64,000 bases of DNA from Bacteroidota bacterium (GTDB lineage Bacteria > Bacteroidota > Bacteroidia > Chitinophagales > Chitinophagaceae): NCBI GenBank assembly GCA_016868815.1, contig VGFQ01000003.1, positions 186,001 through 250,000 of the forward strand. Reading direction: 5' to 3'. The position numbers and the translations under genes were made by a program. Below are positions 14,500 through 28,337 of this stretch, one piece after another. Numbering within the stretch: the first letter of the stretch is position 1; every line of letters starts with the position of its first letter. Below the pieces are notes generated by a model that saw nothing but the letters and a program-made list of their open reading frames with translations, was not told where the DNA came from and ran no database searches.

Positions 14500-16530
14500 A
14501 TGAACGCACGGCTCAGCCATCGTTTTGGCCTCATTTTCCTATCCCTTCATCCTGTCATGGCGTCTGCCCAGCGACTTTCTTCCGACACGGTACAGCAAAT
14601 GGAAGAGGTAGTAGTCACGGCTACGAGGCGCGAGGCCGCTCTTTCTTCGTTGCCATATTCGGCCGTCGTGTTGACGCGGCGCGACATGCGCCGGCAGCCT
14701 TCGCGAACCCTGCCCGAGGGGATGTCGGGCCTGCCGGGGCTCTTCATACAAAAGACCAACCATGCCGGCGGGTCGCCCTTTGTGCGCGGCCTCACCGGCA
14801 ACCAGACGCTGTTGGTGGTCGACGGCATCCGGTTGAACAACTCGATCTTTCGCTACGGCCCGAACCAATACCTCACGCTGCTCGATCCGGAGTGGGCGGA
14901 ACGCATCGAGGTGGTAAAAGGCAGCGGCTCGGTGCAGTATGGGAGTGATGCCCTCTCGGGCGTTGTACAGGTGTTGACGCGAACCCCTTCCTTTTCAAAG
15001 CATCCCCAGTGGAGGGCGCGCCTCGGGGGTCGGCTTGCCAGCGCCGGCATCGAGCAGGGCCTGCGTCCTGAGCTGGAATACTCCGGCAAGCGGATATCCC
15101 TGTTGGCAGGCGCTTCGCTCCGGCAGTTTGGAGACCTGCTTGGGGGCGACACTACCGGCTTTCAACGTCCCTCCGGCTACCGGGAACGCTCTTTCGATGC
15201 CAAGCTGCGGGCCGACCTGGGCCGGGGTTGGATCGCCACCGCCGCTGTCCAGCACTTGCAGCAGACGGATGTGCCGGTCTACCATAGATATAGACTCGAG
15301 TCATTCGCAGTGAATACATCGGACCCCATTGGCCGTGGCTTCGGCTATGTCCGTGCGGAGAAGTCGGTCGAAGGTGCCATTCCCTTACGGACTAGCCTGT
15401 TTGTCGCCTGGCAACGCATCGCCGAGGATCGGCAGTCGCGGAAAAACGGTTCGAAGGTGCAACGCAATGAGTCAGACCGGGCTCGCACGCTATCTGCCGG
15501 AGCCGACCTGACGTTGACATTTTCACCCCACTGGAAGTCGAACAGCGGCATCGAGGTCTATGCCGACAACGTGTCGAGTACGCGGGTCGACACGGACCTT
15601 GAGTTCGATGTACCTAAGCGACTTCGTGGACTCTACCCCGACGGCGCGCGCTACCTGCAGGCATCGGCCTTCAGCTTGCACCATCTCACCTATGGACGCC
15701 TCACCCTGGAGGCGGGTATGCGCTACTCCCTCTTTCGGGCACGCATCACCGACAATATGCTGGGCTCGGTGGAGCTCCGGCCGGAGGCTTGGGTCTTCCA
15801 GGGCGGTGCTGATTTCCGCTTGTTGAAATGGGCCCATGTGTTCCTGCATGCCAGCGAAGGCTTCCGTGCCCCCAACATTGACGATATGGGCTCACTCGGC
15901 ATTGTCGACTTCCGATATGAGCGGCCGGCCTACGACCTTCAGCCCGAACGTTCCCTGAATACAGAGCTGGGATTGCGCCATGCTGCCCACCGCCTGCGTC
16001 TGCAGGCGTCTGTGTTCCGCACCTCGCTGCGAGATCTCATCACGCGCATCAAGACTTCAGAGGTCGTATCCGGCTATGATGTCTATGTCAAGCGCAATGT
16101 CGAGAGGGGTTTCATCCATGGGTTGGAGGCTCAGGTCGACTGGCGTTTCGGGAAAGGGTGGAGGGCTTTCGGCAATGCGACCTGGCTGTACGGTCAGAGT
16201 GTGACACGCAACGAGCCCTTGCGGCGCATCCCGCCATTCAACACCCGGCTGGCCCTGGAATATGGCAGCGGCAGCTGGCGGGCCGGACTGCTACATGATC
16301 ATGCCAGCCTGCAGCAGCGACTGGCGGCCGGTGATGTCGCCGACAACCGAATACCCAAAGGCGGCACTCCCGGCTTCAATCTGCTGCATGCCTTTGCATC
16401 AAAGGATTTTCAACGCCTTACGCTCCGTCTTCAGTTGGTCAACCTGTTGAACGTCGACTACCGGACGCATGGCTCCGGCATCAATGGGCAAGGTCGTTCC
16501 CTGCAGGTGTCAGCCCTGATGGAGTGGTAG
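14500..16530 (+). CDS. TonB-dependent outer-membrane receptor
   Basis: The product is 676 residues with a signal peptide ending near ASAQ. A TonB-box-like EEVVVTATRRE is followed by a plug domain (PEGMSGLPGLFIQKTNHAG, VDGIRLNN, GPNQYLTLLDP, GSGSVQYGSDALSGVVQVLTR) and a beta-barrel of about 500 residues. It ends in an aromatic residue (SALMEW), as outer-membrane barrels do. There is no SusD partner and no carboxypeptidase-like N-terminal repeat, so it resembles siderophore, haem or vitamin receptors more than SusC. A DUF5690 membrane protein follows on the same strand. Confidence 0.85.
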   Translation: MNARLSHRFGLIFLSLHPVMASAQRLSSDTVQQMEEVVVTATRREAALSSLPYSAVVLTRRDMRRQPSRTLPEGMSGLPGLFIQKTNHAGGSPFVRGLTGNQTLLVVDGIRLNNSIFRYGPNQYLTLLDPEWAERIEVVKGSGSVQYGSDALSGVVQVLTRTPSFSKHPQWRARLGGRLASAGIEQGLRPELEYSGKRISLLAGASLRQFGDLLGGDTTGFQRPSGYRERSFDAKLRADLGRGWIATAAVQHLQQTDVPVYHRYRLESFAVNTSDPIGRGFGYVRAEKSVEGAIPLRTSLFVAWQRIAEDRQSRKNGSKVQRNESDRARTLSAGADLTLTFSPHWKSNSGIEVYADNVSSTRVDTDLEFDVPKRLRGLYPDGARYLQASAFSLHHLTYGRLTLEAGMRYSLFRARITDNMLGSVELRPEAWVFQGGADFRLLKWAHVFLHASEGFRAPNIDDMGSLGIVDFRYERPAYDLQPERSLNTELGLRHAAHRLRLQASVFRTSLRDLITRIKTSEVVSGYDVYVKRNVERGFIHGLEAQVDWRFGKGWRAFGNATWLYGQSVTRNEPLRRIPPFNTRLALEYGSGSWRAGLLHDHASLQQRLAAGDVADNRIPKGGTPGFNLLHAFASKDFQRLTLRLQLVNLLNVDYRTHGSGINGQGRSLQVSALMEW

Positions 16531-16568
16531 CCTTTGCGTACTTTAACGCGTTGGGTGCAGGCGGTCAG

Positions 16569-17897
16569 ATGCCTGCCACCGGGTACGACCTAAAAAAACC
16601 TGGATTGGATTCGTCAACTGTCCGTGGCCTGCGCGGCTACCTGTCTAACAGGCCCCTAACAGCGGCGGCTTATACATGCATGGTCGCCTTCCTCACCTAT
16701 GCTTCCGTCTTTGCATACCGGAAAGCCTTTACCGTCGCCACATTCGAGGGAATGAGGCTGGGGCCTTTCACCTATCAGACTTCACTGATCATCTCACAGG
16801 TCGTCGGGTATATGCTCAGCAAGTTCTATGGCATCTATTTCATCTCGGCCATGCGACGGACGCGCCGCTGGGTGTTCGTCGCCTCGATGATCGGCATCTC
16901 CTGGGCCTGCCATCTGTTGTTCGCCCTGACGCCCGACTGGGTGGGGCTGATCTGCTTTTTTATCAACGGCTTCATGTTGGGCTTTCTATGGGGGGTCGTC
17001 TTCAGCTATGTGGAGGGCCGTCGTACGACCGACCTTACAGGCTCGGTGATGGCTGTGAGTTTCATCTTCGCCGGTGGCTTCAGTCGTTCGGTCGGCAAGT
17101 GGCTGATGGTAGAGTACGGTGTGGCAGAGAAGTGGATGCCTTTCTGTACGGGTGCCGTTTTTGCCCTTCCCTTGGCTGTATTCCTGTATCTGATGGAGCA
17201 GATCCCTCCACCCGACGCGGCGGACGAGGCGGAGCGTACCCGGCGTGTGCCCATGGCCGCTACCGACCGCAAGGCCCTGATGCAACAGCTGGGCATCGGC
17301 ATCGGGCTGGTTACGGTGACCTACGTATTCCTGACGATCCTGCGCGACATCCGCGACAACTACATGGCCAATATGTGGGCAGAGCTTGGATATGCCGGCA
17401 ACTACGCCATCTTTACGCGGACAGAGAGTCTCACTTCCGTGGTTGTGCTGGCCATGATGGCCACGCTGGTGTTTGTGCGTCGGAACATACTCGCCCTGCA
17501 GCTCGTGCATGTCGCCATCATGGCCGGCTTCGCCATCGGGGGAGCTGCCTCGGTGTTGTTCTTAGCTGGACAACTCGACGGGGCCCTCTGGATGCAGTTG
17601 ACGGGGCTAGGGCTCTATATGGCCTATATCCCTTTCAACAGCATCTTTTTTGAGCGGTTGATTGCCTGCTTTCGTATGGCGGCCAATGTAGGATTCCTGA
17701 TGTATGTGACGGATGCGTTCGGCTATCTCGGAAGTTTCTCGCTCATGATCATGAAGGAGACGATGCGCTTTGGAATCGACTGGTCGACGTACTACGCCTG
17801 GGGTGTTACCGGTTTTGCCGTGGTCGGCTTGGCAGCCATGGCAACATCCTGGGCTTGGTTTACTGCGCGGCATCGGCGGCTCGGGCAGAGCCGCTGA
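16569..17897 (+). CDS. DUF5690 family multispanning membrane protein
   Basis: The product is 442 residues from ATG 16569; the frame is open to a GTG at 16524 that overlaps the preceding stop. There are about 12 hydrophobic segments in the layout of a major-facilitator-like permease. Conserved stretches such as SVFAYRKAFTVATFEG, VGYMLSKFYGIYFISAM, LGLPF-like helices and RDIRDNYMANMWAELG identify the Bacteroidota DUF5690 family. Its function is unknown. It lies directly behind a TonB-dependent receptor, which may mean a shared substrate (inference). Confidence 0.8.
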   Translation: MPATGYDLKKPGLDSSTVRGLRGYLSNRPLTAAAYTCMVAFLTYASVFAYRKAFTVATFEGMRLGPFTYQTSLIISQVVGYMLSKFYGIYFISAMRRTRRWVFVASMIGISWACHLLFALTPDWVGLICFFINGFMLGFLWGVVFSYVEGRRTTDLTGSVMAVSFIFAGGFSRSVGKWLMVEYGVAEKWMPFCTGAVFALPLAVFLYLMEQIPPPDAADEAERTRRVPMAATDRKALMQQLGIGIGLVTVTYVFLTILRDIRDNYMANMWAELGYAGNYAIFTRTESLTSVVVLAMMATLVFVRRNILALQLVHVAIMAGFAIGGAASVLFLAGQLDGALWMQLTGLGLYMAYIPFNSIFFERLIACFRMAANVGFLMYVTDAFGYLGSFSLMIMKETMRFGIDWSTYYAWGVTGFAVVGLAAMATSWAWFTARHRRLGQSR

Positions 17898-17914: not shown

Positions 17915-18976
17915 TTAGTGGACACCTGAGTCCAAGATAAAACCAAAGGTAGAGCCTACGTCGGGCTTGCTGCGCACATGGATGCTTTTGCCATGTGCTT
18001 CTATGATGTGCTTGCAGATGGCCAGCCCCAGTCCGCTGCCACCGATGTTTCGGCTCCGGCCGTAGTCGGTCCGGTAGAAGCGTTCAAAGACCCGGGGCAG
18101 ATGCTCTTCGGCAATGCCGATGCCGTCGTCGCTCACTTCTACCAGGATGTGTTTCTCATCTGTCACATAGGCACTAATCTCCACCGTCCCTTCTTCTTTC
18201 CCGTATTTGATGGCGTTGTCGATGAGGTTAGCCATCACCTGCCGGATCTTCTTCTTGTCGGCCCGCACCGTCAGCGGGGCGTCGCAGCCTTTTTTAATGG
18301 TGAGGTGTACTGCCTTTACCTGCGCTTTTAGTGAGAGGGCTTCGAAGAGCTCCCGGACAAGGTCCTGGACGACGAAGTCGGTAGGCTCCAATGGCTGTTC
18401 GCCGCTTTCCAGTCTAGAGATCTCGTCCAGGTCTTCTATGAGGTGTACCAGTCGGGAAATGTTCCGGGAGGCGTTCTCCAGAAATTTCCGGTTGACGGAA
18501 GGGTCCTCTAGCGCTTTACCGTCCAGCAGGGTCTCTATGTATCCCTGAATGGCGAAGACTGGTGTTTTGAACTCATGCGAGAGGTTCTGAAGGAAATCTT
18601 TGCGATAGACTTCGTTACGCTGTAGCATTTCTATCTCAGACTTTTTCTGTTCGGCCCATTTCTCGACGTCTTCACTGACTTCTTCAATGCTCTTCTGCGG
18701 CAGGACGTGCTGATAATAGTATTCCTCCCGGCGGGTCGCCTTGGTTTGGAAGATAAACTTATAAATAAGCTTGATCTTGCGGTAGATGAAGCGTTGAATG
18801 ACAAACCAGGTGAGCCACTGTGTGAGGATGAAGAGCAGGAGGAAGGTGGCTGCCGTCTGCCAGCGCAGACCCAAGAAGGCGAGTTGCAGCAGGGCGGCTG
18901 TGCCGGAGACGGCCAGGGCGATGTAAAACGCCATCTGGCCGGGTGTCAGATTTTTCCGTTGGAGCATGTGTGGCAT
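17915..18976 (-). CDS. PhoR-like sensor histidine kinase
   Basis: The product is 353 residues. Two transmembrane helices (about 15-65) leave almost no periplasmic sensor loop. The DHp H-box is NLSHEFKTPVFAIQGYIETL. The HATPase domain has N-box NLIDNAIKYG, G1 VSDDGIGI, F-box RVFERFYRTDYGRSR and G2 GGSGLGLAICKHI. The frame is open to 19033, but ATG 18976 has an AAGAGG Shine-Dalgarno-like sequence 2-3 nt upstream and starts right before the first helix. It sits 66 bp downstream of its response regulator with this start, in one operon. The layout matches the Bacteroidota PhoR/YycG type of kinase. Confidence 0.85.
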   Translation of the reverse strand: MPHMLQRKNLTPGQMAFYIALAVSGTAALLQLAFLGLRWQTAATFLLLFILTQWLTWFVIQRFIYRKIKLIYKFIFQTKATRREEYYYQHVLPQKSIEEVSEDVEKWAEQKKSEIEMLQRNEVYRKDFLQNLSHEFKTPVFAIQGYIETLLDGKALEDPSVNRKFLENASRNISRLVHLIEDLDEISRLESGEQPLEPTDFVVQDLVRELFEALSLKAQVKAVHLTIKKGCDAPLTVRADKKKIRQVMANLIDNAIKYGKEEGTVEISAYVTDEKHILVEVSDDGIGIAEEHLPRVFERFYRTDYGRSRNIGGSGLGLAICKHIIEAHGKSIHVRSKPDVGSTFGFILDSGVH

Positions 18977-19042
18977 GCCTCTTCTTTCATATGCATCCCT
19001 GTGGCGGGCTTTGCACGTTGCCCGGGATATCATGAAAGTACG

Positions 19043-19723
19043 TCACATCTCGAACTTGTAGCCGACCCCTTTGACAGTCCGGATACAGTCGATGCCCAGT
19101 TTCTGGCGGATCTTTCGGATATGCACGTCGATGGTGCGGTCGCCCACGATAACGTCTGGGCCCCAGACATGGCTGAGTATCTCATTGCGCAGGAAGACGC
19201 GTCTGGGGCGGGAGGCGAGGAGATAGAGTAATTCGAACTCTTTCTTGGCCAGAGCGATGGCTTGGCCTTCATGGTGCACGCTGAACTGAGTGGGGTCTAT
19301 GCGAAGGCTTTCCAGCTGGATGGGCGCCTCGTCGATGTTGCGGGCCTTCCGGCGGAGGAGTGCATGGACGCGACTGATCAGCACGCGCGGACTGACGGGC
19401 TTGTTGATGTAATCGTCTGCACCGTATTCGAGGCCGCGTACCTGCGACAACTCATCGTTCAGCGCCGTCAGCATGAGGATCAGCGTATCGTGAAAGGCAG
19501 TGTCTGAGCGGAGCATTCGGCAGACATCCATGCCTGTCCGAAAGGGCATCATGACGTCTAGGATGATAAGGTCGGGCTTAACAGACCGGGCCTTTTGCAG
19601 GGCTTCCTCCCCGTTGGAGGCGGTGGCGACTTCATATCCTTCTGCTTCCAGTTTGTACCGGACAATCTCGAGGATGTCGGGCTCGTCGTCTGCCACCAGT
19701 ACCTTGATGCCCTTAGAGTCCAT
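19043..19723 (-). CDS. OmpR/PhoB-family response regulator
   Basis: The product is 226 residues. The receiver domain has the acidic pair in VADDEPDILEIVRYKL, phosphoacceptor Asp in LIILDVMMPFRTG and Lys in DDYINKPVSP. A winged-helix effector follows (EFELLYLLAS, then VFLRNEILSHVWG and the recognition helix region RTIDVHIRKIRQKLG). The gene is first in the regulator-kinase operon. An exact TAnnTTTG box (TACTTTTG) lies 17 nt upstream of its ATG. Overall similarity to PhoB/YycF and the neighbouring kinase would suit envelope or phosphate control, but no target site is assigned. Confidence 0.85.
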   Translation of the reverse strand: MDSKGIKVLVADDEPDILEIVRYKLEAEGYEVATASNGEEALQKARSVKPDLIILDVMMPFRTGMDVCRMLRSDTAFHDTLILMLTALNDELSQVRGLEYGADDYINKPVSPRVLISRVHALLRRKARNIDEAPIQLESLRIDPTQFSVHHEGQAIALAKKEFELLYLLASRPRRVFLRNEILSHVWGPDVIVGDRTIDVHIRKIRQKLGIDCIRTVKGVGYKFEM

Positions 19724-19748: not shown

Positions 19749-19839
19749 TGGACAGGCTGGCAGCGGGCATGCCCCGGAGCATTATCAAATTGTTAACCGA
19801 AGCGGGTGCCCTGCCTTGCCAGCTTTCGTGGCGATGGGT

Positions 19840-19850: not shown

Positions 19851-22058
19851 ATGTTTGGTTTACGGATACGTTGCGTGTTGATCCCGCTTCTGTGGGCCTG
19901 CTGCCTGGGGTCTGCCCTGGCAGCAGACACCACCCGTCAGCAGATCGACATCCGTCGGCAGAAGCTGCACGAAGACATCGATGCACTGCAGGCCCGGCTA
20001 GAAGCCGTCGACGGCCAGATTGACCAGCAGCTGGCCCTCACTCCCGACCGCGAGGTGAACCTGCTCCTCACGGATGTATTCCTCCGTCGGGTGGATGCTT
20101 TGCAGGACTCCCTCGAGTTCAGCAAGGTCCTGGAGCATCGGCTGAAGGTGAAATACCTCGCGGGGCTGGAACATACCCTTGCAGGCTATCTCTCGGAGAC
20201 GCGTGCAGGTCGCATCCCTCCTGAGCAGGGCTCTCTGCTCTTCAGCGGCTTTGAGTCCATCATGCGCGCAGATATGGCGGGCCGGTCGATCGCGGCAACC
20301 GCGGAGTCACAACCCTTCCCTGTCGGCAACATCCTTTTCCTGCTGCCCAACTCCGTCTTCCATGACACGCCCGGGTATCGGGAGGCGCGGAATACCATCT
20401 TTCTGAAATATTGCAGCCTTCACCCGGAGAAAGTGCTGACTACCATCGTAGGGTTTGCCGACCAGCTTTTTGCCGACAGCCTGATCGCCCTGAGTGCCCG
20501 CCGCTATCCCAACCTGTTCTACGACTATGCGGCGGCGGTCACCACGCCGCTGGGCCAGTTGATCCGCCGGCAAAAAGACCCGCTCGCACGCGTCATCACA
20601 GATATGTCTAACCGCCCTGGCGGCCGGCTCCTTTTTCCATTCATCGACGAAGTCGTCAAGGGACGCGCCACCCTGAACCAGATAGAGGCGGCCATGAAGG
20701 ACAGCCTCAAATACTTCCGGCTGCTGGTCTCCACGCAGATCCGCTATGTGGACCGCATGCGGGCCGGCGATACCCCTTTTGCAGCCCCCGAGCTGCCGCG
20801 CATGATGAAGCGCAAGGCAGAAGAGGTATTTGTCAATACCATCAATGCCCTGCACGACGAGCCGGACGCCGTCCGCTTCCGCATCCTGGAGCCCCTCGAC
20901 GTGCGAGAGCTCTACTATCTCATTGTGATGGGGGAAGAGATCATCTACACCTCCAGCTACCGCGGCGTCTACAACCGCATGATGGAGCGGATGCAGACCC
21001 CTTCCGGCGACAGCCTCCTCCTCTCCGTCCGGTTCGACCGCTTCAAGAAGTTCATCAAGATGGCGGCTGGCTTCAATCGGCTCGACCATTTCCTTTCGAC
21101 GATGCCCGACAGCAATGCCCAACGCCTGATGATCGCTTTCGCCCGTGGGCTAGACCGTACCGGTGGCCTGGAAGAGGCAGTGGACGTGGCAGACTCTTAT
21201 GGCAGCATCACGACCCCCACCGTGAGGCGACTGATCGACCGCGAGGTAGAGCTGAGTCGGCAGCGAAGCTTGCGGGCTTCCCAACGCCGCAGCTTTGTCA
21301 TCTATGATATCCTGCAGACCATCTTCCGTTCCTCATCAGACAGCACGGTAGACCTCTCCGCTAAGCTGGGCATCCCCCCCGTCTACCGCGTCGACTACCG
21401 CCAGCTGGCAGATACGGGCGGGCGTGTCGTCCAACTTGTATTCTTCTATGGCGACAAGGACGGGATAGAGTCCTTTGCCAATTTCATGACCCTTTTCGGG
21501 TCGAAGGCCGACTGGCTGGTCACCCGCACCAAAGAATGGGTCGAGATACAGTCGCTCACGGGCAAGAATCTGTCGATCTATGCCAACCTGCCACTCGACA
21601 ATATCGCGGGAGATGACCCCGATGCCCTTGCACAGACCCATCTCTTGGGACATCTGGAAACTTTAGGACTGGCCCCCACCATCGTCATCCACCGGGGCCA
21701 TAGCTATCACCTCAAATACACCCTCGCGCAGCTGCCTGCCACCGCCCGGGTTGTCATCCTCGGCTCCTGCGGTGGGTATCATAACCTTGACGAAGTCTTG
21801 GAGCGCTGCCCCGACGCCCACATCGTCTCTTCCAAAGAGGTAGGCACGCGGCTGGTCAATGAACCGATCCTGCGAATGCTCAACGAAGACCTTCGCAATG
21901 GAAATGATATCCTGTGGGTCCCCATGTGGAACGCCCTTTCCGCACTTTTCACGCAGCCTGTCACCCGCGAGCGCTTTGAGAACTACATCCCGCCTCACCG
22001 CAACCTGGGGGCGCTTTTCATCAAGGCCTACCGTCAGACGATGGGAGCCGCCCTCTAG
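19851..22058 (+). CDS. Exported protein of unknown function with a possible caspase-like C-terminal domain
   Basis: The product is 735 residues from ATG 19851, with a signal peptide (about 1-25, ending SALAA). Residues 30-95 look like a coiled coil. The middle part is helical and matches no family I know. From about 540 the sequence alternates strands and helices: VVQLVFFYGDKDGIESFANF, TREW..IQSLTG, then TIVIHRGHSYH with H617 and ARVVILGSCGGYH with C640. A His after a small/Gly turn at the end of one strand, and a Cys after the next strand, is the arrangement of clan CD (caspase-like) peptidases. The 23-residue spacing is short for the clan. Function is inferred only from this motif. The gene is divergent from the two-component operon. 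Confidence 0.55.
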   Translation: MFGLRIRCVLIPLLWACCLGSALAADTTRQQIDIRRQKLHEDIDALQARLEAVDGQIDQQLALTPDREVNLLLTDVFLRRVDALQDSLEFSKVLEHRLKVKYLAGLEHTLAGYLSETRAGRIPPEQGSLLFSGFESIMRADMAGRSIAATAESQPFPVGNILFLLPNSVFHDTPGYREARNTIFLKYCSLHPEKVLTTIVGFADQLFADSLIALSARRYPNLFYDYAAAVTTPLGQLIRRQKDPLARVITDMSNRPGGRLLFPFIDEVVKGRATLNQIEAAMKDSLKYFRLLVSTQIRYVDRMRAGDTPFAAPELPRMMKRKAEEVFVNTINALHDEPDAVRFRILEPLDVRELYYLIVMGEEIIYTSSYRGVYNRMMERMQTPSGDSLLLSVRFDRFKKFIKMAAGFNRLDHFLSTMPDSNAQRLMIAFARGLDRTGGLEEAVDVADSYGSITTPTVRRLIDREVELSRQRSLRASQRRSFVIYDILQTIFRSSSDSTVDLSAKLGIPPVYRVDYRQLADTGGRVVQLVFFYGDKDGIESFANFMTLFGSKADWLVTRTKEWVEIQSLTGKNLSIYANLPLDNIAGDDPDALAQTHLLGHLETLGLAPTIVIHRGHSYHLKYTLAQLPATARVVILGSCGGYHNLDEVLERCPDAHIVSSKEVGTRLVNEPILRMLNEDLRNGNDILWVPMWNALSALFTQPVTRERFENYIPPHRNLGALFIKAYRQTMGAAL

Positions 22059-22159
22059 CATATGCATACCTACGTGCTAGCCGGCCTCTGATGGCCTTGT
22101 GCTTGCTCGCTCGATGATGTTATTTGGTCGCTTCGTGTTCAGAGGGGAACTTGCATGCA

Positions 22160-23968
22160 ATGACCCATCCATCGGGCAGTCCCAGCCGGGGTTGGCTCAA
22201 CCACCTTCAGAGGATCTTTACCTATACCAGGCCCTATCGCGCTCGTTTTTGGGTGTCGGTAGCCCTTGCCATCGTGCTGGCAGCGGTCGCTCCCTTGCGG
22301 CCCTTACTCATCAACTACACTCTGGAGGACATCTTAGGCAGACAAGGGTCGACTGCGGCCGCAGTCACCCGGCTGCTCTGGCTGGTGACGGCCATCCAGC
22401 TCGCGATCCTGGCCATAGAGACGGCCATGCGCTTCCTCTTCGCCTATCTGACGACATGGATGGGGCAGTCGGTAGTCCGGGATCTCCGCGTCCAGGTCTA
22501 TGGCCATATCCTCTCCTTCCATCTCCGGCAGTTCGACTCCACGCCCATTGGTACGCTGACCACGCGTACGGTCAATGATATAGAGGCGGTGAATGATATT
22601 TTCGGGGAGGGACTGGTACCGATCCTGGCAGATATCTTGTCGATCGGAGCAATCATCGCTGCCATGTGCTGGACAGACTGGCGCCTTACGTTGGTATGTC
22701 TGGTGCCTTTTCCCCTCATGCTGGTCGGCACCTGGTTGTTCAAAGAAAGTGTCAACCGCTCTTTTCAAAAGGTACGGAATGCCGTTGCCGCCCTCAATGC
22801 CTTTGTCCAGGAGCAACTCACCGGCATTCAGATCATTCAGGCCTTCGGCCGCGAAGGTGCGGAGGTCAAACGCTTCGACACCATCAACAGGGCCCATCGT
22901 GATGCCAACATCCGCGCCATCCTCGCCTATTCTGTCTTCTTCCCCTTCGTAGAGATCGTGCTAGCCAGCTCCATGGGGTTGCTGGTATGGTATGCGGCCC
23001 GACATGCCTATGGCCTGCCGGGCGCTACTGCCGCAGGGGTGACGGGGGATATCGTATCCTTCATCCTGCTGCTCAACCTGTTATTCCGCCCTTTGCGGGT
23101 CATCGCCGACAAGTTCAACGTTTTGCAGATGGGTGTGATAGCCGCCGAAAGGGTCTTCCGAGTACTTGACAATAGCGACCTACCGTGCGACAAGGGCCTT
23201 CTGCAATGCCTACAGCCGCGGGGAGCGCTGCGTTTTGAGCAGGTATCTTTTTCCTATGTCGAAGGGCAGCCCGTGCTCAAAGACGTCAGCTTCGAGGTGG
23301 CTCCGGGCGAGACCCTGGCCATCGTAGGGAATACCGGCAGCGGCAAGTCGACCATCGTCGGACTAATCAGCCGGATGTACGAGGTAGGGCAAGGACGCAT
23401 CTGCTTCGACGGTCATGACATCCGCGACTACAGACTCGCCTCACTGCGTCAGCAGGTGGGCGTGGTCTTACAAGATGTGTTTCTGTTTGCTGGCTCTCTG
23501 CTAGATAATATCACGCTGCGCAACCCGGCCATCTCCCGGGAACAGGTGATAGAGGCCGCAAAGATGATCGGCATGCATATTTTCATCCTGCGGCTGCCCG
23601 GGGGCTACGACTTCCCGGTCGGTGAGCGGGGAGGAAGCCTCTCCCTCGGACAGCGCCAGCTCATCTCCTTCATTCGGGCCGTCCTTTACCGGCCGGCCCT
23701 GCTTATCTTGGATGAGGCGACCTCTTCAGTTGATCCTGAGTCGGAGCAGCTCATCCGGCTTGCCACCGAGGCGCTCATCGCAGGACGAACCTCCATCGTC
23801 GTCGCCCATCGGCTGTCGACCATCCGAAAGGCACACCGCATCCTGGTGCTCGACAAAGGAAGGGTCGCCGAGCAGGGCACCCACGAGGAGCTGATGGAGC
23901 GACGTGGACTCTACGCCCGGCTGCACGACCTGCAGTTTGCTGCCGGGGCAGGGGCTGGCTCCGTCTGA
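22160..23968 (+). CDS. ABC transporter, fused permease and ATPase (MsbA/MdlB-type exporter)
   Basis: The product is 602 residues from ATG 22160; the frame is open to a TTG at 22124. The N-terminal half has six membrane segments of an ABC exporter, including the coupling region FDSTPIGTLTTRTVNDIEAVN. The ATPase domain has Walker A GNTGSGKST, the Q-loop in VGVVLQDVFLFAG, signature LSLGQRQL, Walker B LLILDEATSSVD and the switch His in VVAHRLSTI. The substrate could be lipid or drug; nothing in the sequence decides this. It ends about 90 bp before the ATP synthase operon. Confidence 0.85.
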   Translation: MTHPSGSPSRGWLNHLQRIFTYTRPYRARFWVSVALAIVLAAVAPLRPLLINYTLEDILGRQGSTAAAVTRLLWLVTAIQLAILAIETAMRFLFAYLTTWMGQSVVRDLRVQVYGHILSFHLRQFDSTPIGTLTTRTVNDIEAVNDIFGEGLVPILADILSIGAIIAAMCWTDWRLTLVCLVPFPLMLVGTWLFKESVNRSFQKVRNAVAALNAFVQEQLTGIQIIQAFGREGAEVKRFDTINRAHRDANIRAILAYSVFFPFVEIVLASSMGLLVWYAARHAYGLPGATAAGVTGDIVSFILLLNLLFRPLRVIADKFNVLQMGVIAAERVFRVLDNSDLPCDKGLLQCLQPRGALRFEQVSFSYVEGQPVLKDVSFEVAPGETLAIVGNTGSGKSTIVGLISRMYEVGQGRICFDGHDIRDYRLASLRQQVGVVLQDVFLFAGSLLDNITLRNPAISREQVIEAAKMIGMHIFILRLPGGYDFPVGERGGSLSLGQRQLISFIRAVLYRPALLILDEATSSVDPESEQLIRLATEALIAGRTSIVVAHRLSTIRKAHRILVLDKGRVAEQGTHEELMERRGLYARLHDLQFAAGAGAGSV

Positions 23969-24036
23969 GTCCCGGTGCGACTTCGGTTTTTCATCGCCTT
24001 TTCCCTTGGGTGCTGTTTTTTTAGGCGCTCGCTCGT

Positions 24037-24044
24037 TATCTTTG
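24037..24044 (+). promoter_or_regulatory. Probable -7 box of the ATP synthase operon (TATCTTTG)
   Basis: An exact TAnnTTTG match lies 15 nt upstream of the GTG chosen as the atpB start. It sits after the stop of the ABC exporter gene. Confidence 0.6.
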
Positions 24045-24059
24045 CGGCAAAATTTCAGG

Positions 24060-25551
<1,492 letters not shown>

Positions 25552-25634
25552 TCGAAAAGGAACTCGGCCGCACCTTGGGCACAGGGCTCGAGGTGTGGCC
25601 AATCCCCACCACCCCACCAGAAAATTGCTACGAT

Positions 25635-26138
25635 ATGGATTTGTTGACACCTTCCTTCGGCCTTCTGATCTGGACCCTTCTGGCCTTTGTGCTCGTGCTG
25701 GTCGTGCTTCGCAAGTTCGCCTGGGGTCCGATCCTATCCGCATTGAACGAGCGGGAGCAGACGATTGCTGATTCGCTTGCAACGGCCGAACGCGTCAAGT
25801 CTGAGATGGCTCAAATGAAGGGCGAGAACGAAGCCCTGCTGGTCAAGGCCCGCGAGGAGCGTGCCGCCATGCTGAAGGAGGCGAAAGAGACCAAGGATCG
25901 CATCATCGGCGAAGCGCGCGACCAGGCAAAGGCAGAGGCAGCCAAGATCCTGGCAGAAGCCCAGGCTACGCTCGAGAACCAGAAGATGGCGGCCCTCACT
26001 GATGTGAAGAACCGCATCGGAGGCATGGTCATTGAAATCTCCGAGAAAGTGCTCCGAAAATCGTTGGCAGACCGTGCCGCACAGGAGGACTATATCCGCA
26101 CCCTCGCCGACGATGTAAGCCTCCTCGGCCGCCATTGA
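25635..26138 (+). CDS. atpF: ATP synthase F0 subunit b
   Basis: The product is 167 residues from ATG 25635. One N-terminal helix (FGLLIWTLLAFVLVLVVLRKFAW) is followed by a long charged coiled coil rich in Ala, Glu and Lys, the peripheral stalk. The frame is open from 25575, but those residues do not fit the family start. It is followed by atpH after 21 bp. Confidence 0.92.
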   Translation: MDLLTPSFGLLIWTLLAFVLVLVVLRKFAWGPILSALNEREQTIADSLATAERVKSEMAQMKGENEALLVKAREERAAMLKEAKETKDRIIGEARDQAKAEAAKILAEAQATLENQKMAALTDVKNRIGGMVIEISEKVLRKSLADRAAQEDYIRTLADDVSLLGRH

Positions 26139-26159
26139 CAACCCATCACCGCAAACTCC

Positions 26160-26723
26160 ATGCGCCAATATAAGGTAGCCCACCGTTACGCCAAGGCCCT
26201 CTTCCAGCTCGCCCTCGAGGGCGGCAGCCTCGAGGCTGTGCATTCCGACATGCAGCTCATAGGGGGGCTGGGCCATGCTGAATTTTCGCGCATGATGGTC
26301 TCGCCCATCATCAAAAGCGATGCCAAGGCTAAGGCCTTCGCAACCGTCTTCGGCAACCGCATCAGTCCGCTGACCGCTTCATTCTTCAACCTCGTCTTTC
26401 GGAAGGGTCGCTCGCTCTCCCTGTCAGAGATACAAGCATCTTTCGAAGCGATGTACCTCGACTACAAAGGCGTAGTCGTGGCAGAGCTGACGACGGCCTT
26501 GCCTGCTTCTGATGCCGTCAAAGAAGACATGCGTCGACGCCTCGAAGCACTGCCGCAGATGGCCGGCAAAAAAGTCATCCTCCACGATCGTGTCGACCCT
26601 TCCATCATAGGCGGTTATGTGCTGCAACTGGGCGACCATTCCCTCGACGCCAGCATCCGCCGCGATCTGCGCACCATTCAGACGCAATTCGTTGAAAACA
26701 TGTACGTACAAAACATCAGGTAA
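26160..26723 (+). CDS. atpH: ATP synthase F1 subunit delta
   Basis: The product is 187 residues. It has the N-terminal six-helix bundle start (VAHRYAKALFQLALEGG) and the family C-terminal signature (DPSIIGGYVLQLGDHSLDASIRRDL). It connects the peripheral stalk to the F1 head. It lies between atpF and atpA on the same strand. Confidence 0.92.
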   Translation: MRQYKVAHRYAKALFQLALEGGSLEAVHSDMQLIGGLGHAEFSRMMVSPIIKSDAKAKAFATVFGNRISPLTASFFNLVFRKGRSLSLSEIQASFEAMYLDYKGVVVAELTTALPASDAVKEDMRRRLEALPQMAGKKVILHDRVDPSIIGGYVLQLGDHSLDASIRRDLRTIQTQFVENMYVQNIR

Positions 26724-26756
26724 AACCACCGACAACCCGATTCAAAAGCCCCTATC

Positions 26757-28337
<1,581 letters not shown>

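Follow-up and report, generated by a model that had tools for sequence, protein, structure and literature searches.

A putative family of exported clan-CD-like cysteine peptidases encoded beside a two-component system in Chitinophagales

The catalytic dyad of separase is formed by H2003 and C2029, with a spacing of 26 residues (PMC12609080), and that of the Craspase TPR-CHAT protein by H585 and C627, with a spacing of 42 (PMC9729208). DdvA (8rot), a transmembrane anti-sigma factor, carries the annotation of a CHAT protein. Iotapain of Bacteroides represents the clostripain-like C11 proteases, which are secreted cysteine proteases of Bacteroidota.

The gene analysed here lies in a window of 64,000 nucleotides (the whole stretch of DNA considered) from a member of the Chitinophagaceae. 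We consider, with a probability of about two in three, that its product belongs to a so far undescribed group of exported cysteine peptidases whose catalytic domain is putatively clan-CD-like (caspase/hemoglobinase-type). This reading is based on an invariant dyad, its spacing, the strand topology, the structural matches and the linkage to a kinase and a regulator. The family itself is real, undescribed and deeply conserved, and the source protein is best explained as the founding type of the proposed family.

Gene, conserved residues and distribution

An uninterrupted reading frame encodes 735 amino acids (Table 1). Close homologues share the start ATG and an N-terminus resembling a signal peptide. 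By inspection the N-terminus, MFGLRIRCVLIPLLWACCLGSALA followed by ADTT, looks like a Sec signal peptide, and most homologues begin similarly; the protein would thus be exported to the periplasm. In the full-length AlphaFold model (pLDDT 76, pTM 0.52), built from a shallow alignment of 7 sequences, the N-terminal two thirds are helical up to about residue 494, and strands 611-614 and 634-637 precede H617 and C640, respectively. The model of the isolated domain, from an equally shallow alignment of 8 sequences, agrees, with strands at 611-615 and 634-637; both residues lie 2-3 positions from a predicted strand end. An earlier note, made from the sequence, had described a signal peptide, a helical middle region and a C-terminal alpha/beta domain with HRGHS (614-618) and LGSCGG (637-642) at the ends of strands. 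Its numbering is correct, and this layout is borne out by the N-termini and by AlphaFold, the alpha/beta domain being seen in both models.

Table 1. Features of the locus, with positions in the window
Feature	Position	Strand	Evidence
CDS, 735 aa, exported clan-CD-like protein (putative)	19851..22058, stop included	+	homologues begin at equivalent Met
Signal peptide, residues 1-24 (SALA followed by A)	19851..19922	+	inspection; alike N-termini in homologues
Helical region, residues 28-494, solenoid-like	19932..21332	+	AlphaFold secondary structure
C-terminal alpha/beta domain, residues 505-735	21363..22055	+	domain model pLDDT 81.6, pTM 0.83
FYGDKDG (532-538), end of strand 1, candidate S1-pocket acids	21444..21464	+	D535 invariant, D537 77/78
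HRGHS motif (614-618), putative catalytic H617	21690..21704	+	H617 75/78; R615/G616/S618 78/78
GSCGG motif (638-642), putative catalytic C640	21762..21776	+	C640 78/78
Conserved intergenic site ATTATCAAATTGTTAA (16 bp)	19781..19796	.	between regulator and protease-like gene
OmpR-type response regulator, divergent	19043..19723	-	Pfam Response_reg + Trans_reg_C; orthologues in other contexts
Histidine kinase	17915..19033	-	Pfam HisKA + HATPase_c; hydropathy

Homologues were aligned in two sets, the first of 46 sequences, nearly all from Chitinophagaceae, and the second of 78 sequences, with distant copies added. H614, R615, G616, H617, S618, Y619, G638, C640 and G641 are invariant in the first. 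The conservation of H617 and C640, by which the earlier note had proposed to judge the pair, was observed in the second set: C640 is present in all 78 sequences and H617 in 75, and since both are retained in homologues reaching down to about 31% domain identity, the pattern is more than chance. The two residues are separated by 23 positions in 77/78 homologues, and the pattern is kept in short as well as long paralogues. N670, W689 and D535 are likewise present in all 78 sequences of this alignment, distant copies included, and D537 in 77. In the alignment and in both models a conserved His is followed by a conserved Cys at the ends of successive strands, as in clan CD.

A single-sequence search detected the gene in 187 of 195 Chitinophagaceae genomes (163 of the 167 of good quality), and a profile search in 53 of 149 sampled Chitinophagales, several other families included. 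Among 395 sampled Bacteroidota there were 14 carriers, all of them Chitinophagaceae, and no credible match was found outside Chitinophagales in the Bacteroidota samples. Two weak domain-profile matches outside the order (E 0.0007 and 0.002) are probably chance; they are short frames, one of them with stops.

Other families of the order often carry a short (~700 aa) and a long (~1000-1100 aa) copy in tandem. The helical N-terminal region of long paralogues (e.g. L084, L085 and L072) appears to match the profile twice, as though it had been duplicated. H617 is replaced only in three long tandem paralogues (L077, L078 and L079; by Leu in two of them and by Tyr in one), which retain the Cys and are possibly pseudo-enzyme partners of the short copy. 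The loss of His in such copies would suit an explanation in which the whole family has a caspase-like fold and serves as a non-cleaving sensor or scaffold, for example as a periplasmic signal-binding protein for the kinase; the presence of DdvA, an anti-sigma factor, among the top structural matches also points this way. However, both residues are found in 46/46 of the sequences first aligned and in nearly all others, and a scaffold would not need them. We consider a pseudo-protease unlikely.

Fold and sequence comparisons

When the full model was compared by VIA-align, human separase came first (Z 10.1 over 169 residues at 3.8 Å, and 9.6 over 159 at 3.3 Å), with DdvA at 9.0, TPR-CHAT at 8.4, Chaetomium separase at 8.2 and C11 iotapain at 7.9; RagA/Gtr and Arf GTPases scored 8.0-9.2. 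With the domain model, C11 iotapain was first (Z 8.7 over 187 residues), GTPases following at 8.6 and below, and Foldseek gave small GTPases the best E-values. Because the Z-scores are moderate and for the most part lie within 1 of each other, the fold search alone does not separate clan CD from GTPases. The separase and C11 matches speak for the caspase/hemoglobinase fold expected in the earlier note, but small GTPases score about the same. In the separase alignment (9hn4), residues 371-722 correspond to 1764-2115, an offset of 1393 at both ends that would place H617 and C640 4-7 residues from H2003 and C2029; this is end-point arithmetic and not a superposition.

These scores could be taken to indicate a Rossmann-like or GTPase-like domain unrelated to clan CD, in which His and Cys serve in metal binding, acyl transfer or redox chemistry: small GTPases lead the Foldseek list for the domain, and their VIA Z-scores are tied with that of C11. 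However, the GTPase matches span 125-156 residues against 187 for C11, the GTPase would have to be an exported one, and the His and Cys stand exactly at the positions of the clan CD dyad. As the Walker A motif GxxxxGK[ST] occurs in 0/78 homologues, a GTPase identity is rejected by sequence. A domain of this kind is quite improbable.

Known families gave no match to the protein in Pfam, NCBIfam, PHROG, PADLOC or PDB sequences. No Pfam family was assigned to the 735-aa protein at E<=5, and the C50 model was absent from the Pfam matches listed for 64 homologous domains. Membership of CHAT (PF12770), gingipain C25 (PF01364), clostripain C11 (PF03415) and caspase C14 (PF00656) was rejected, as the gene reached none of the curated cut-offs. 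Direct searches of the genome found C25 in two other places only, and CHAT, C11 and C14 nowhere. PDB profile matches, EF-hand-like and HigB, fell on the DKDG stretch and were attributed to chance. Literature searches found no description of the family.

Profile-profile comparison by hhalign gave a probability of 4.3% against CHAT (not significant, with the catalytic Cys aligned), 1.1% against C14 and 0.1% against C25; unrelated context families reached at most 0.4%. The C11 score was ignored, since that set was small and poorly aligned. Among known clan CD pairs, CHAT-C14 scored 94.8%, CHAT-C25 1.2% and C14-C25 3.0%. Since accepted pairs score as low, the method is nearly blind at such distance, and its evidence for CHAT, C25, C14 and C11 was set aside as too weak. 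Common descent with clan CD is plausible. The caspase or gingipain layout suggested in the earlier note stands as regards the order of His and Cys and their position at strand ends, whereas the nearest structures are separase and CHAT/C11, and no Pfam match to C25 or C14 was obtained.

Papain, NlpC/P60 and transglutaminase types have the Cys before the His. A different kind of His/Cys enzyme with the cell wall or lipoproteins as substrate, for instance an amidase, transpeptidase or acyltransferase, would account for the signal-peptide-like N-terminus and the conserved His and Cys, but here the His precedes the Cys by 23 residues and no Pfam match to such families exists, which makes it a very remote prospect.

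Two-component neighbours and intergenic site

The position of the gene divergent from a two-component operon, also claimed from the sequence alone, was supported by Pfam, which identified a histidine kinase and an OmpR-type regulator on the opposite strand. An orthologous pair is divergent from the gene in 24/25 Chitinophagaceae contexts. In three other families an orthologous kinase (43-46% identity) adjoins the gene on the same strand (G559, G526 and G544, with loci L070, L071 and L081), the order in G544 being regulator-kinase-protease; coordinates add G545, G553 and G488 as kinase-adjoining cases. The kinase and the gene are on different contigs in about ten other genomes. This near-constant linkage suggests that the protease-like protein and the two-component system act in one envelope pathway. 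The kinase is near-universal in Chitinophagales and occurs also in 83/99 genomes without the gene, which is therefore an added partner and not a required part. The whole kinase/regulator pair is likewise present in Chitinophagales without the gene, which weighs against our reading. Hydropathy predicts two transmembrane segments in the kinase with almost no periplasmic loop between them; such a loop-poor kinase would fit a signal coming from an accessory protein.

In most genomes a 16-bp site resembling ATTATGAAATTGTTAA is located 46-67 bp away from the start of the regulator. Of 23 divergent intergenic regions, 22 contain the direct repeat TTAA-N7-WTAA (11-bp period), where 1.9 would be expected. 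The distance to the regulator is fixed, whereas that to the protease-like gene ranges between about 24 and 441 bp; the site thus mainly supports autoregulation, and is probably the box through which the linked response regulator controls its own gene. Control of the protease-like gene by this regulator was rejected as unsupported, the distance being variable.

Around the locus, the gene is followed by an ABC exporter and, after it, by the ATP synthase operon (window 22124-28337), an order kept in many Chitinophagaceae, and a DUF5690 membrane protein (transporter-like) is encoded directly after a TonB-dependent receptor gene (window 16524-17894).

Possible mechanism and comparison with named systems

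If the protein is a clan-CD-like peptidase, the Sec signal peptide would deliver it to the periplasm, where the helical N-terminal two thirds, by analogy with separase and TPR-CHAT, would serve as a scaffold, holding or gating the catalytic domain and presenting the substrate. From their invariance and position, H617 would activate C640 for attack on the peptide bond, and the acidic pair D535/D537 after strand 1 might perhaps cause a preference for a basic residue preceding the scissile bond. Either the two-component system would control the protease, or the protease would process a signal for the kinase. A speculative proposal, rather doubtful when taken whole, is that an envelope-sensing two-component pathway of Chitinophagales includes a periplasmic separase-like protease as a dedicated component, which cleaves a protein of the envelope or a signal for the sensor-less kinase. 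If true, bacterial two-component signalling would have caspase-like regulated proteolysis as its input step. An exported caspase/separase-like enzyme retained by nearly all members of a large bacterial family, next to one regulatory system, would in itself mean a housekeeping role for this fold, as opposed to the defence and cell-death use usually discussed for its bacterial relatives. The family has no name in any sequence library tested, which makes it invisible to annotation.

Caspases and metacaspases (C14) resemble the protein in having His and then Cys at strand ends, but PF00656 does not match the protein and the hhalign probability is 1.1%. Gingipain and PorU (C25) are exported Bacteroidota proteins with a His/Cys dyad; the protein described here lacks a PF01364 match (hhalign 0.1%) and ends with its own alpha/beta domain, without an added C-terminal secretion domain, and C25 proteins are encoded separately in the source genome. 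The C11 proteases gave the best match to the isolated domain, but they have no long helical region, PF03415 does not match here, and C11 was found neither in three sampled Chitinophagaceae relatives nor in the source genome.

In CHAT and TPR-CHAT proteins (PF12770; Craspase Csx29, DdvA) helical repeats precede a caspase-like domain, much like the arrangement predicted here, the structural scores are 8.4-9.0 and the two Cys are in register in the hhalign alignment. Against this, the similarity is below the Pfam threshold (hhalign 4.3%), the spacing is 42 against 23 and the motif is SACET in CHAT and GSCGG here. Separase (C50) is a very large eukaryotic nuclear protease, whereas the present protein is bacterial, putatively exported and of 735 aa; there is no Pfam match, identity is about 10% and no counterpart of its specificity residue D2070 was identified. 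Separase nevertheless has a helical N-terminal part followed by a C-terminal protease domain, an arrangement that the present protein may share, has a similar His-Cys spacing (26 against 23) and heads the structural matches to the full-length model (Z 10.1). In our reading, separase and TPR-CHAT are the closest in layout.
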